DNA of 64,000 nucleotides from Weissella viridescens (GTDB taxonomy: Bacteria; Bacillota; Bacilli; Lactobacillales; Lactobacillaceae). Location: NCBI RefSeq assembly GCF_001437355.1, contig NZ_JQBM01000004.1:21108-85107 (forward strand). The letters run 5' to 3'. Below, one piece after another: positions 2,345-53,772 of this stretch (positions within the stretch are counted from its first letter, which is position 1; each line of letters opens with the position of its first letter). A program made the position numbers and the translations under genes. The notes beneath the pieces are model-generated. The model did not search any database, was not told where the DNA came from, and worked only from the letters and a program-made list of their open reading frames with translations.

Positions 2345-3340
2345 TTATCCCCTCTTTGTGTCAGTTTTTGTAATGTGTTCAAGTAGTTCACCAGCACCCT
2401 TGGCAACATTGTCCAATGGGCTATCTGATACCATGACTGGAACACCAAGTTCATCAGAAAGATATTGATCAATGCCACGGAGCAAGGCTCCTCCACCGGT
2501 CAACACAATACCACGATCAATCACGTCTGCTGATAATTCTGGTTGAATTTCAGCTAAGACATGATGGGCTGCTTTAACCACTTGATTAATTGAATCGTGC
2601 ATTGCAGCTTCAACCATGTTTTCATCCAATGTAATCGTGCGTGGCATCCCCGTGAATGTATCACGTCCACGAACTTCCATTTCAGCTGGGTTTTCAACTG
2701 GCAAAGCCGTTCCAAGTTCAATTTTAACTTGTTCAGCTGTGCGTTCACCAATTTGCAAACCAAATTCATGCTTAATGTAATTTGCAATATCAGCGTTCAA
2801 GCGATCACCAGCAACGCGAATTGATTCACTTTGTACAATATCACCCAATGAGAGTACAGCGATATCAGAAGTTCCACCACCCATGTCGATAACCATTGAA
2901 GCAATTGGTGAGAAAATGTTTAATCCTGCCCCGACTGCTGCAACCTTTGGTTCGTACTCTAGATAAACTTTTCCGCCACCAGACTTTTCTGCAGCCTCAA
3001 TAATTGCTTTACGTTCGATTTCAGTAATATTTGTTGGTGCACAGACCATGATGCTAGGACGACTCATAACACCCTTAGCCTTTAGCTTTGACATGAAATA
3101 AGACAACATTGCCTCAGTCATATCAAAGTCAGAAATCACACCATCTTTAAGGGGACGTACTGCCCGGATATTTCCAGGGGTACGTCCAACCATCTTGTAT
3201 GCATCCGTTCCGACTGCTAAGACCTTATCTTTTTTTGTATCAATCGCAACGACTGAGGGTTCATTTAGGACAATCCCCTCGCCCTCTACATAAATGAGGA
3301 CATTTGCTGTACCTAAATCAATACCAATTGTTTTAGCCAT
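2345..3340 (-). CDS. mreB: MreB/Mbl actin-like cell shape protein
   Basis: This bacterial actin polymerises under the membrane and guides the elongation machinery. The 331-residue product carries the phosphate-1 motif GIDLGTANVLIY at residues 6-17, the phosphate-2 motif DMGGGTSDIAV, and the adenosine motif LTGGGALLRG. The spelling ELSADVIDRGIVLTGGG and the APTNIT segment are closest to B. subtilis Mbl, so mbl is an equally good symbol. No mreC or mreD lies nearby; here the gene is followed by DUF2969 and rodA. It is divergent from murF, with a 148-base shared upstream region. Confidence 0.93.
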   Translation of the reverse strand: MAKTIGIDLGTANVLIYVEGEGIVLNEPSVVAIDTKKDKVLAVGTDAYKMVGRTPGNIRAVRPLKDGVISDFDMTEAMLSYFMSKLKAKGVMSRPSIMVCAPTNITEIERKAIIEAAEKSGGGKVYLEYEPKVAAVGAGLNIFSPIASMVIDMGGGTSDIAVLSLGDIVQSESIRVAGDRLNADIANYIKHEFGLQIGERTAEQVKIELGTALPVENPAEMEVRGRDTFTGMPRTITLDENMVEAAMHDSINQVVKAAHHVLAEIQPELSADVIDRGIVLTGGGALLRGIDQYLSDELGVPVMVSDSPLDNVAKGAGELLEHITKTDTKRG

Positions 3341-3420
3341 GTTACCACCTCTTTTAAACAGACTACCTGTTTTAATTTTTAAAGTTCTATCATTACAGTA
3401 TACAACAATTTCGATTTAAT

Positions 3421-3450
3421 TTGCTTGTTGTTTCTATTCCAGTGTAAAAT
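3421..3450 (+). promoter_or_regulatory. candidate murF promoter
   Basis: TTGCTT at 3421-3426 and TAAAAT at 3445-3450 are separated by 18 bases, ahead of the AAAGGA ribosome site and the murF ATG at 3489. The fit is fair. The divergent mreB promoter must lie in the same gap; a TATACT is visible on the minus strand near 3400 but without a clear -35. Confidence 0.4.
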
Positions 3451-3488
3451 TAAAAGACAGAACTGACAAATAACAAAGGAAGATTAAC

Positions 3489-4856
3489 ATGAAACTCACA
3501 ATTCAAACGATTGCCCAAACGCTCTCAGCAGAAATTAAAAATGAACAACCCGTTACAGTAACAAGTACCACTTTTGATTCACGTGCTGCTAAACCAGATA
3601 GTCTTTTCATCCCGCTCGTCGCAGAAAACGATGGTCATAATTATTTAGCTAGTGCCGTTGAAAATGGTGCTACTGCCAGTCTTTGGCAAATTGACCACAC
3701 CCCCTATCCGACTGAAATCCCCTTAATTTTGGTTCCAGATACACTTGAAGCTTTCCAAAATCTGGCACAGTACTACCTAACTGTCGTACAACCAAAAATT
3801 GTTGCCATTTCTGGATCAAATGGTAAAACAACCACTAAGGATTTGATTGCGGCCATCGGGGCAACCAAGTACAACACAGTTAAGACACCCGCAAACTTTA
3901 ATAATGAAATTGGGGTGCCAACAACCATTCTTGCCATGGACGAGCAAACTGAATTACTGGTTTTGGAAATGGGAATGGATCACCCTGGTGATTTAGACAA
4001 ATTATCTAAACTTGTTCACCCCGACATTGCCGTTTTGACAATGATTGGCGAAGCACATATTGAATTCTTCAAGACTCGCGCCAATATCGCTGATGGTAAA
4101 ATGCAAATCATTGATGGATTCAAGTCTGACAGCGAACTCGTTTACAACGGTGATGAACCACTCTTAGTCGAGCGTGTTGGTGCCAATGACGGCTTAAAGA
4201 GTACTCGTTTTGGTCTTACTGCCCATAACGATCTCTTTGCTTCAAACATTTCAATGACTTCAACGCAAGCAAGTTTTACCACAAATACTTCTGGCCAAAC
4301 TTTCACAATTCCGCTAACCGGACGCTACAACGTTGCTAATGCGCTTGCCGCCATTAGCGTCGGCCACTTACTCGGTGTTGACGATACGACGATGGCACAA
4401 GCCTTAGCGACAGCACCAATTACCGCTAACCGGACGCAATGGCTTGAAGGTAACTTCGGTGGCAAGATTTTGTCAGATGTCTACAATTCAAACCCCACTG
4501 CGGCAAAGGAAGTCTTACATGCCTTTAGTGAAGTTCCAACAGATGGACGTCGCATGGCTGTTCTTGGTGATATGCTCGAATTAGGTGAAGCGGGTCCTGA
4601 ATTACATGCCAGTTTAGCTGATGCGCTCGACCCAGCAACCATTCAGGAAGTATATCTGGTGGGCGACTTAATGCAAAACTTGGTTGAGGCCTTGCAAGAC
4701 AAGTATCCCGCTGGTGCTGTTCACCATTATGCGGTTGACGAGAAACCCGCATTACTCGCTGATTTGAAAGCAACCCTAACGCCGACTGATATCTTATTAT
4801 TGAAAGGATCACACGGCATTCATCTTGAAACCATTGTCACAGACCTAGTGGATTAG
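3489..4856 (+). CDS. murF: UDP-MurNAc-tripeptide--D-Ala-D-Ala ligase
   Basis: MurF adds D-alanyl-D-alanine to UDP-MurNAc-tripeptide, the last cytoplasmic step of peptidoglycan precursor synthesis, using ATP. The 455-residue product has the N-terminal Mur ligase domain (TTFDSRAAKPDSLFIPL), the ATP loop ISGSNGKTTTKD near residues 107-118, the NFNNEIGVP segment, and the C-terminal domain around YNSNPTAAKE. Length matches the family. AAAGGA ends seven bases before the ATG. It is alone on the plus strand between mreB and dedA. The usual neighbours ddl and cshA are elsewhere; a DEAD-box gene lies at 47.9 kb. Confidence 0.95.
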   Translation: MKLTIQTIAQTLSAEIKNEQPVTVTSTTFDSRAAKPDSLFIPLVAENDGHNYLASAVENGATASLWQIDHTPYPTEIPLILVPDTLEAFQNLAQYYLTVVQPKIVAISGSNGKTTTKDLIAAIGATKYNTVKTPANFNNEIGVPTTILAMDEQTELLVLEMGMDHPGDLDKLSKLVHPDIAVLTMIGEAHIEFFKTRANIADGKMQIIDGFKSDSELVYNGDEPLLVERVGANDGLKSTRFGLTAHNDLFASNISMTSTQASFTTNTSGQTFTIPLTGRYNVANALAAISVGHLLGVDDTTMAQALATAPITANRTQWLEGNFGGKILSDVYNSNPTAAKEVLHAFSEVPTDGRRMAVLGDMLELGEAGPELHASLADALDPATIQEVYLVGDLMQNLVEALQDKYPAGAVHHYAVDEKPALLADLKATLTPTDILLLKGSHGIHLETIVTDLVD

Positions 4857-46313: not shown

Positions 46314-47807
46314 CTAATCAACAATTTGGCGTGGCAACCGTGGTGCCATACTGGTCGCAATTTCATATGGAATGGTTTGCGCTTGTTGTGCCAAGTCATC
46401 TAACGTAATTTCACAATCACCGACTCGACCAAGCAAGGTCACTACCGTCCCAACCGGCAATGCCTCTGGCAAACGTACCATACACTGATCCATTGCAATT
46501 CGTCCGACAATTTCAATCTCGCGTCCATCTGGTAGCAAAGCTGTCATCCCTTGCATCGAACGTGGATAACCATCAGCATAACCAATTGGCAAAGTTCCAA
46601 TCCACTCATCAGTGCTCGTCGTATACGTTGCCCCATACGAAATACTATTTCCCGCTGGCACTTGTTTAACATAAACTAATTCTGCCTTTAGTTGCATCAC
46701 TGGTCGTAAGTCGCGATTTGGCAAAGTCCCTTGTGAGGAATCAAAGCCGTACATCCCTGCACCAACTCGAATCATGTCATGGCTTGGTAACGCGTGCCAC
46801 AAGGAAGTTCCTGAGTTCGCTAAATGACGGATGTTGGTTTCTGGAATAGCTTGGTCATCAATTAATTCATGCCACTTCGTCAACTGTTGGTCAAAATACG
46901 CCGTATTTGTTGTATCGGCAGTTGAAAAATGCGTCCAAATCGAATCGAAGATAATATTAGTATTCGCATTAATAAGTTGAATCACCTCAGTTAATTCTTT
47001 TCGATCTCGAATACCAATCCGTCCCATACCAGTGTCAACAGGTACGGAAACATGTAATTGGGCCCCTTGTGGCAGTAAGCGCAAGGCTTCTTTCAGCCAG
47101 GCAACACTACTAACAGGTACCGTCAACTGATTATCCACGATTTCCGCAACATACTGCACAGGCGTCAATCCCAAAACCATCACTGGCTCAGTTACCCCAA
47201 ATTGACGTAACCAGATGCCTTCATCCATCACCGCAACCGCAAACTGATCAACGTTGGCAGCCTGCATGATTGGTACAACCTGTTCTAGACCATGACCATA
47301 TGCATTAGCTTTTACAACTGCACAAAATCGTTTGGTTCCTGTTAATTCACGAATATAGTCAATATTATGTTTTAAGGCTTCCCCTGAAATTTCAAGCCAA
47401 GCTGGTCGATGACGTGCGACCGGTAAAGCTGTTTGTGTATCTGACATTTTTTGCTCCAATATAACTAAACTATGTACTAAATCACCAGTATGCGAAATTG
47501 AAATATGTACGGATAATTGATCATGTTGGGGACCTTTCGTAACGATCGGTTCGCCATGCTCCCCAACTAAAACTTCAATATCTTGAAAGCCAACACCTTG
47601 GCTAATACCTGTACCTAAGGCTTTGCTATACGCTTCTTTAACTGAAAAGCGTCCCGCTAGAAACGCAGTCTGTCGTTTACCACGACGTTGATTATAAATT
47701 TCGCGTTCACGTTCAGTTAAGATAGCGTTCACGGTGCGTGGTGTGCGTTCAACCATTTTGGCAACGGCACTTATCGTTTGAATATCTGTCCCCGTACCAA
47801 CAATCAT
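46314..47807 (-). CDS. holo-ACP synthase-alanine racemase fusion
   Basis: This 497-residue reading frame joins AcpS and Alr. Residues 1-120 are a full AcpS, with GTGTDI (Asp8), the catalytic KEAYSKALG (Glu58) and HISISHTGD. Residues 121-497 are a full alanine racemase: VVKANAYGHG (PLP lysine near 166), SISYGATYTT (catalytic Tyr) and LPIGYADGYPR. AcpS transfers phosphopantetheine to acyl carrier protein, Alr makes D-alanine for the wall. Gene order acpS-alr-mazF is common in lactic acid bacteria, normally as separate genes. At the join the DNA retains GGAG, a six-base spacer and ATG at 47447, so Alr could also be made alone. Confidence 0.9.
   Translation of the reverse strand: MIVGTGTDIQTISAVAKMVERTPRTVNAILTEREREIYNQRRGKRQTAFLAGRFSVKEAYSKALGTGISQGVGFQDIEVLVGEHGEPIVTKGPQHDQLSVHISISHTGDLVHSLVILEQKMSDTQTALPVARHRPAWLEISGEALKHNIDYIRELTGTKRFCAVVKANAYGHGLEQVVPIMQAANVDQFAVAVMDEGIWLRQFGVTEPVMVLGLTPVQYVAEIVDNQLTVPVSSVAWLKEALRLLPQGAQLHVSVPVDTGMGRIGIRDRKELTEVIQLINANTNIIFDSIWTHFSTADTTNTAYFDQQLTKWHELIDDQAIPETNIRHLANSGTSLWHALPSHDMIRVGAGMYGFDSSQGTLPNRDLRPVMQLKAELVYVKQVPAGNSISYGATYTTSTDEWIGTLPIGYADGYPRSMQGMTALLPDGREIEIVGRIAMDQCMVRLPEALPVGTVVTLLGRVGDCEITLDDLAQQAQTIPYEIATSMAPRLPRQIVD
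47447..47457 (-). promoter_or_regulatory. internal ribosome site and ATG at the AcpS-Alr junction
   Basis: The minus strand reads GGAG (47457-47454), CAAAAA, ATG (47447-47445). This ATG encodes Met121 of the fusion, which is where standalone Alr proteins begin. The codons also read through as LEQKM in the AcpS frame. Confidence 0.65.
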
Positions 47808-49765: not shown

Positions 49766-51031
49766 TTAGAAATCATCTTCGATTTGAATATCCGCATTTA
49801 GCATAGTCAACTTATGAACCAAGCGATCATAACCACGAAGGACGTGTTCGGCATTGGTAACTTCTGTCACACCATCGGCCATTAAGCCAGCAATCATAAG
49901 CGCTGCCCCTGCACGAATTTCTTCGGCAGCAACAGTCGTCCCATGCAATTCACCACTCTTATGAACTGCAATTTCGCCATACGTATCAGCATCAATATTC
50001 ATTCCTAGTTTGTTCAACTCAGGTACGTGACGTGTACGTTCTGGATAGATTGTTTCATAAATCATGCTTGTTCCATCAATCATCCCCAACAAAGGTGTGA
50101 TTGGTTGTTGCAAATCAGTCGCAAAACTTGGATATGGCGCAGTCTTAATATTGACTGGTGACAACTTACCTGTCTTTGGCACATAGATACTGTCTTCTCG
50201 GACATCCAGTTCCACACCCATTTCAAGCATCTTGGCAATAAACGCTTCCAAGTGTTCAGGAATCACGTTCTTAATCAAAACACCTTCACCTTGTGCAGCT
50301 GCTAGGGCCAAATAAGTTCCGGCTTCGATTCGGTCAGGGATAGCTGTGTGCGTCGTTTCTGAACCCAAGTGCTCAACACCAGTAATCCGGATTGTATCTG
50401 TTCCTGCACCACGAATATTAGCACCCATGTTGTTCAAGAACGTTGCCAAATCAATGATTTCTGGTTCCTTGGCAGCATTTTCAAGCGTTGTTACACCTTG
50501 AGCATGTACCGCAGCTAAGATAATATTCATTGTAGCTCCAACTGAAACCATATCCAAAAAGATATGTGCACCCTTCAAACCATTTTCAGCAACAATATGA
50601 ATCGTGTCGTTTTCCTCAGATACAGTCGCACCTAAGGCTTCAAACCCTTTAATATGTTGATCAATTGGACGTGGTCCAATGTTATCACCACCTGGGAAGG
50701 TTACAGTTGCACGCCCAAAACGGCCAAGCAAAGAACCCATAAAGTAATATGAGGCACGTAAGCTCTTAATTGCAGTTGATGGTAAATCAGCTTCCACAAT
50801 TTGTGTTGGGTCAATCATCAACTTACCATCTTCAAAAGTTGAACTAACGTTCATTGATTCCAAAATTAATTGTAAGTTGTAAACGTCTAAAATATCAGGC
50901 ATTCCATCAAAATGAACGGGGTCTTCTGAAAGAATAGCTGCCGGAATTAACGCAACGGTTGAATTCTTTGCGCCTCCAATTGTCACTTCACCACTAAGTG
51001 GACGCCCACCATGAATGACTAATTTCTTCAT
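49766..51031 (-). CDS. murA: UDP-GlcNAc 1-carboxyvinyltransferase with Asp at the Cys115 position
   Basis: MurA transfers enolpyruvate to UDP-GlcNAc, the first committed step of peptidoglycan synthesis. The 421-residue product has GGAKNS (Lys22), PGGDNIGPRPIDQHIKGFEALGA near 113-135, and FATDLQQP with the catalytic Asp. Where most MurA enzymes have the reactive Cys115 (PGGC), this one has Asp116, codon GAT at 50684-50686. The same Cys-to-Asp change in Mycobacterium, Chlamydia and Borrelia keeps activity but gives insensitivity to fosfomycin. Paralogues MurA and MurZ both exist in Firmicutes; this one's segment resembles MurAA. The start at 51031 follows AAGGAG. Confidence 0.94.
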   Translation of the reverse strand: MKKLVIHGGRPLSGEVTIGGAKNSTVALIPAAILSEDPVHFDGMPDILDVYNLQLILESMNVSSTFEDGKLMIDPTQIVEADLPSTAIKSLRASYYFMGSLLGRFGRATVTFPGGDNIGPRPIDQHIKGFEALGATVSEENDTIHIVAENGLKGAHIFLDMVSVGATMNIILAAVHAQGVTTLENAAKEPEIIDLATFLNNMGANIRGAGTDTIRITGVEHLGSETTHTAIPDRIEAGTYLALAAAQGEGVLIKNVIPEHLEAFIAKMLEMGVELDVREDSIYVPKTGKLSPVNIKTAPYPSFATDLQQPITPLLGMIDGTSMIYETIYPERTRHVPELNKLGMNIDADTYGEIAVHKSGELHGTTVAAEEIRAGAALMIAGLMADGVTEVTNAEHVLRGYDRLVHKLTMLNADIQIEDDF

Positions 51032-51346: not shown

Positions 51347-53072
<1,726 letters not shown>

Positions 53073-53112: not shown

Positions 53113-53679
53113 TTATTCTGCATCACCTGAACCGTAATCGTCATCGACAGGCTTAATGCCGCCAATTTCATCACCGATACCACTTGATACTTCATCAATT
53201 TCTTCTTCAGCAGCATCGTCATCGTCGTCGGCATCTTCAGCATCTTCAGCCGTTTCGGCTGCTGCTTCACCAAAATCATCATCTTCAGGATCATCGTCAT
53301 TGTAGTCAATCACATCATCGTCATCATCTACATCTGCCAAGAAGGCGTTAATCTTCTTACGCTTCTTCTTTGGCTTGTTTTCCTTTTCTTCTTCAAGATC
53401 CAAGTGAACCGCTTCATCAATAGAATCAATTGGGTACCATGAACGAAGTCCCCACATGTTATCTCCCAATGAGATAAATGATCCATCAATATTTAAGTCC
53501 GTATAAAACTGAGCTAAGCGCGCACGAATTTCTTCGTCCGACTTACCTGTAAATGTTTGAACCTCATTCAATAAATCAGAAAACGCCATGGTTTCATGAC
53601 GGTCAGACAAAATCGCACGAGCTACCTCAATCATTGAGAGCTCTGATCGGTTTTGGCCATCAAATTGTGTTATTGCCAA
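53113..53679 (-). CDS. rpoE: RNA polymerase delta subunit
   Basis: Delta helps RNA polymerase recycle and increases initiation specificity in Gram-positives. The product (about 188 residues) has the N-terminal HARE-HTH domain ([13 protein letters not shown], then [12 protein letters not shown]) and an acidic, low-complexity tail from about residue 115 ([22 protein letters not shown]). Starts are uncertain: GTG at 53688 is one base from AAAGGA, so TTG at 53679 (AITQFDGQ) fits the family N-terminus and spacing better. pyrG follows, the usual rpoE-pyrG order. Confidence 0.93.
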
Positions 53680-53772
53680 ATCACGCACGTCCTTTCACAG
53701 TCTTATTTATTTGCTAATTTTACAATACTTAACGGTGATGAGCAACTCATTTTGCTCAAAAACACTAACTTA

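Follow-up and report, generated by a model that had tools for sequence, protein, structure and literature searches.

In known MurA enzymes, the cysteine of the active-site loop is the residue that fosfomycin alkylates. The parallel with Mycobacterium, Chlamydia and Borrelia that was drawn in an earlier note on this DNA is supported by PMC4790336: in these bacteria, as in Weissella, Asp in the catalytic site of MurA goes together with intrinsic fosfomycin resistance, and as they belong to phyla distant from Weissella, the changes presumably occurred independently. Outside Lactobacillaceae, the C119D mutation of Enterococcus faecium MurA, found in four clinical isolates, is the same TGT-to-GAT change as that seen in the MurA described here (PMC5652432). 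When tested on a plasmid and as an enzyme, the mutant had an IC50 of over 100 uM (wild type, 177 nM), with kcat unchanged and the efficiency for UDP-GlcNAc about half (PMC5652432). Accounts of the catalytic cost of the Asp residue differ: for C115D of Escherichia coli MurA a more than tenfold drop in catalytic efficiency is cited in PMC5652432, whereas PMC4790336 calls the same mutant fully active.

Among the closest described systems are those of the leuconostocs, which are intrinsically fosfomycin-resistant and in which Asp115 of MurA has been linked to resistance (PMC9733070). Leuconostoc and related lactic acid bacteria share with Weissella the residue at this position of MurA, and the resistant genotype is apparently present in Weissella, Fructobacillus, Oenococcus, Pediococcus and lactobacilli (PMC9733070). 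As that paper both ties Asp115 to resistance and names Weissella, Asp MurA as the basis of fosfomycin insensitivity in Weissella is already known. The sections of the paper concerned (10 and 11) do not separate the two MurA paralogues, do not place the change on a tree and say nothing of the Cys-type copy kept by many lactobacilli. Weissella has been described as intrinsically fosfomycin-resistant (PMC4621295), and an MIC of over 256 mg/L was reported for all tested strains of Lactobacillus delbrueckii (PMC12077209), the MurA sequence of which lies outside the set compared here. Fosfomycin resistance in Weissella has been credited to FosB-like or transporter genes (PMC4621295; PMC4687380), and a 2023 survey gave a HAD hydrolase as the fosfomycin gene of three Periweissella strains, MurA going unmentioned in its main text (PMC10100829). 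Among the top 9 to 20 open-licence papers listed for each literature search, judged mainly by titles and abstract openings, there was none on a single MurZ change, repeated MurA1 loss or dead MurA1, and none of those listed for a dead MurA paralogue or for MurA1/MurA2 of lactobacilli dealt with the topic. What is added here is the history of the paralogues and the description of degenerate MurA1 copies.

The murA gene and its active site

The DNA analysed (the window) is a stretch of 64,000 nucleotides from a contig of Weissella viridescens. It contains a murA gene with the following features:

49766..51031, minus strand: murA (MurZ/MurAB paralogue, UDP-N-acetylglucosamine 1-carboxyvinyltransferase), 421 aa, stop codon included; from model scores, translation and trees
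50684..50695, minus strand: PGGD, active-site loop residues 113-116; the 3zh4 chain has PGGC in the alignment
50684-50686, minus strand: codon GAT of Asp116, replacing the catalytic Cys; read from the sequence
50963..50968, minus strand: Lys22-Asn23, active site; alignment and sequence
50669..50671, minus strand: Arg121; alignment and sequence
50114..50116, minus strand: Asp306 in FATD, presumably the catalytic base; alignment and sequence
49835..49837, minus strand: Arg399, which we take to be the conserved active-site arginine; alignment and sequence

The start was assigned to the ATG at 51031, which is preceded by AAGGAG and the Met of which aligns with residue 1 of 3zh4, the closest solved chain; a longer frame starting 13 codons upstream was rejected on these two grounds. 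The protein passed the curated cut-off in three MurA models, with 472.2 bits for TIGR01072 (cut-off 392.7), 624.1 bits for NF009470 (cut-off 552) and 500.9 bits for NF006873 (cut-off 297). Asp, encoded by GAT, occupies the position of the catalytic Cys115 (E. coli numbering), giving PGGD where 3zh4 has PGGC, and none of the 421 residues is Cys. Lys22, Asn23, Arg121, Asp306 and Arg399 are all kept. The earlier note had reported PGGD in place of PGGC at residues 113-116, a GAT codon separated from TGT by two base changes, and intact Lys22, Arg121 and Asp of the ATD motif; each of these readings holds, the span then given (50675-50695) corresponding to PGGDNIG, and Asn23 and Arg399 can be added to the intact residues. 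It is confirmed that the gene encodes a complete Asp-type MurA.

Copy number and distribution of the Asp residue

The W. viridescens genome (1.54 Mb in 8 contigs, rated 100% complete) gave a single MurA match, the window gene, in a protein search with E up to 10. Two members of PF00275 were present, the window MurA and an AroA (TIGR01356, 403.8 bits, cut-off 287.25), the gene of which sits among apparent shikimate-pathway genes (named by eye). Neither the protein search (E up to 10) nor the PF00275 search found a second, Cys-type MurA in the assembly, so that the Asp-type enzyme has no Cys-type MurA alongside it. The earlier note had pointed out that a second murA with Cys, carrying the essential role, would speak against insensitivity; with AroA as the sole relative of MurA in this genome, that route of refutation is closed. 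An extra match of about 42 bits obtained in three Weissella genomes was considered as a possible second MurA and rejected, being a second AroA in the two genomes checked. Loci L283 and L284, from two Weissella genomes, hold a second AroA-like gene besides the usual one (TIGR01356, 296-297 bits, cut-off 287.25).

Among named relatives, Weissella uvarum comes closest, at 90% identity. In a motif search that admitted Cys, Asp, Gly or Tyr at the catalytic position, an Asp codon (GAT or GAC) was found in all 28 genomes of the genus, 26 with GAT and 2 with GAC among the matches listed, which shows that the Asp in the window is no sequencing slip. Within the family sample, none of 26 genus genomes carried the Cys motif. 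MurA was present in 396 of the 397 family genomes (E up to 1e-60), the one genome without a match (G089) being 65% complete. The Cys motif was found in 231 of the 397, of which 2 or 3 represent matches outside MurA (G028, G149 and probably G131, each of which has one MurA); other motif hits outside MurA include the second match in G006 and in G007, and G375 carries PSGC, which is invisible to the Cys-motif pattern. The reason for the Cys-motif count is apparent among the matches listed: many genera possess two MurA copies, of which one reads PGGCAIGxRP and the other PGGD, in most cases PGGD[ND]IGPRP. Going by motif, 22 of the 40 genera sampled, roughly half, had a Cys-type MurA beside the Asp-type; in two of these 22, g2 and g12, the only Cys-motif matches apparently lie outside MurA.

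At the level of the order, the Asp motif was present in 19 of 19 Lactobacillaceae genomes and in none of 129 genomes from eight other families, the wider motif having matched in all 148; outside Lactobacillaceae the matches carried Cys, except for a third match with Gly in G465, among the matches listed. The Asp counts rest on the genus set (28 genomes), the order sample and the family matches listed. Asp in MurA is an ordinary family trait, and nothing special to this strain. In one genome of genus g28 (G054, locus L209, 91% complete), the only MurA found was a Cys-type MurA1, with no Asp-type copy; this counts against Asp as an exceptionless trait of the family, and MurZ may be missing from the assembly.

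Paralogue identity, MurZ history and degenerate MurA1 copies

Two trees were built from 225 different frames: one quick, with 146 rows, and one careful, with 84 rows and no loop columns; fragments, split genes, four catalytically dead copies and many near-duplicates were left out. In both trees, the Asp MurZ proteins of Lactobacillaceae formed one clade in the MurZ half, beside the Cys-type MurZ of other Lactobacillales and apart from MurA1. In the careful tree, the 59 Asp rows lay on one side of a branch with support 100/100 (200/200 bootstrap trees; the bootstrap was slightly short of settled, with a correlation of 0.988), and the branch separating the MurZ half from the MurA1 half was likewise supported 100/100. 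On the quick tree the Asp label takes two changes, the second on account of three extra copies, strongly divergent, in genus g19. These extra MurA genes, found in three of the five sampled g19 genomes (loci L217, L218 and L219 of G111, G081 and G160, at about 2980-4275), encode PGGDDFGSRP and keep the catalytic residues; they are remote from both MurA1 and MurZ on the quick tree, and their neighbours, named by eye, include no pyrG or atp genes.

The position of the gene in the chromosome agrees with the trees. Upstream of murA in the window lie:

51347..52981, minus strand: pyrG (CTP synthase), the neighbour that marks the MurZ locus; TIGR00337, 787.9 bits, and conserved order
53113..53688, minus strand: rpoE (RNA polymerase delta subunit), next in the conserved order; TIGR04567, 118.6 bits

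The window gene stands beside pyrG and rpoE, not beside atpC and mreB. For the order rpoE-pyrG-murZ, a pyrG match was obtained in 36 of 43 named Lactobacillaceae loci (L099-L141), the seven loci without one belonging to Leuconostoc and Fructobacillus. The window protein is the pyrG-linked paralogue MurZ, not MurA1. By tree, other Lactobacillales and Bacillaceae have the same paralogue as a Cys-type MurZ, and pyrG is close by in some of the loci examined; this MurZ differs in the loop, having PGGC[FYDNHP]LGPRP where the MurZ of Lactobacillaceae has mostly PGGD[ND]IGPRP. The single Asp clade points to a single origin of the residue, and the best reading of trees and gene order is that Cys gave way to Asp in MurZ ahead of the family's diversification and that MurA1 was lost later from the Weissella line.

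MurA1 was present in 25 of 50 genomes and absent from the other 25, degenerate copies being scored as present. On the 50-tip gene tree this distribution takes at least 9 changes, a figure that serves as a guide only because several branches of that tree are weak. In genus g6, MurA1 has mreB, yidD and rodA on one flank and, on the opposite flank, a small protein and ATP synthase genes (named by eye), and several copies have departed from the active-site pattern. The MurA1 of G369 (locus L216, 3001-4281) reads PAGG where PGGC is expected, with Gly replacing Cys, has His at position 92 in place of Arg, and retains Lys22, Asp306 and Arg399; judged by these residues, it likely represents an early stage of the decay seen in other g6 copies.

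In four further g6 copies, at about 2980-4250 of loci L212 (G326), L213 (G153), L214 (G234) and L215 (G344), the frame is open over about 405-421 residues, and Lys22, the PGGC motif, Arg121 and Asp306 are all missing. The degenerate gene adjoins mreB in L212, L213 and L215, the three loci with listed neighbours, with ATP synthase genes on the opposite side in L212 and L213. All four proteins matched NF006873 near full length and below the cut-off, and the outcome was the same for the two that were scanned against all NCBIfam models. From their residues, the four are predicted to be dead enzymes. They nevertheless look constrained, since dN/dS was about 0.13-0.16 among three copies (two of their three pairwise comparisons having dS above 1, and the pairs with the G344 copy being near or past saturation), against 0.03 for mreB from the one computable pair of the g6 comparison; the four are thus possibly conserved as dead enzymes.

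One history that would connect these observations, which we put forward tentatively and as somewhat less probable than its negation, is that MurZ underwent its Cys-to-Asp change long ago, at the root of Lactobacillaceae, while the Cys-type MurA1 carried the load, and that this change then freed MurA1, which would have been lost repeatedly and would have left in one genus a dead yet constrained protein beside mreB, perhaps a regulator of the Asp enzyme. The paralogue history suggests a model, open to test, in which cover from a duplicate gene allows a two-step change in an active site to become fixed.

Predicted fosfomycin insensitivity and alternative explanations

We consider it very probable that the sole MurA of this organism is an Asp-type MurZ derived from one change on the family stem, that MurA1 is absent, and that the enzyme is insensitive to fosfomycin and the cell intrinsically resistant. 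Asp would have replaced the catalytic Cys, residue 115 in E. coli, a single time, in MurZ, on the stem of Lactobacillaceae, and the Asp carboxylate would take over the function of the Cys thiol, with UDP-GlcNAc-enolpyruvate still being made. Lacking the thiol, the enzyme would present fosfomycin with nothing to alkylate; by analogy with the Asp enzymes of other bacteria, the predicted insensitivity of the window MurA is well founded. Because MurA1 is absent from the lineage, the Asp enzyme would be the sole support of peptidoglycan synthesis, and intrinsic resistance of the cell would be expected. This would provide a simple target-based cause for the natural fosfomycin resistance reported in Weissella and some lactobacilli, in which case there would be no need to appeal to annotated FosB-like genes, and resistance would be chromosomal rather than acquired, which is of use in the safety review of food strains and in the design of selective media.

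It is improbable that the main source of resistance in Weissella lies elsewhere, whether in a FosB/FosX-type enzyme, in efflux or in missing uptake, with Asp adding little. The genome encodes a single protein of PF00903, presumably the family with the FosA/B/X enzymes, and this protein matched no fosfomycin-resistance model (in a scan run without a positive control), its only match being a weak one to methylmalonyl-CoA epimerase, far below the cut-off. FosB-annotated genes and transporters do appear in Weissella surveys (PMC4621295; PMC4687380), but Asp alone was sufficient in vitro in E. faecium (PMC5652432). Still less probable is an independent, recent Cys-to-Asp change in Weissella as an adaptation of that lineage: two-step codon changes do occur, TGT to GAT in E. 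faecium being an example (PMC5652432), but such an origin is contradicted by the single clade, in which the 59 Asp rows fall together even with the loop columns removed, and by the order-wide distribution of the Asp motif. The chance that a sequencing error or a decayed gene underlies the Asp residue is negligible, given that the codon agrees in 28 of 28 genus genomes and that the window frame is intact with family scores above cut-off. One member of the genus, G009 (L282, a one-contig genome), does have a murA split by a frame change, but its pyrG is split as well, for which reason the split is most likely an assembly error.

Of a different kind is the proposal that something other than fosfomycin drove the fixation of Asp, for instance the chemistry of the enzyme or regulation in a cell that produces acid, with insensitivity as a by-product. 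It concerns the origin of the residue and not its present effect, and is compatible with the explanation preferred above; we regard the chances for and against it as evenly balanced. A change on the stem of the whole family, with a Cys-type MurA kept alongside in about half of the sampled genera, is unlike what recent drug selection would leave, but early exposure to phosphonate producers is a possible alternative cause.

Elsewhere in the window, positions 46314-47807 form one frame of 497 aa that joins holo-ACP synthase (AcpS) to alanine racemase, and the fused frame was open in all four of the other loci checked (W. uvarum, W. hellenica, W. confusa and W. sagaensis).
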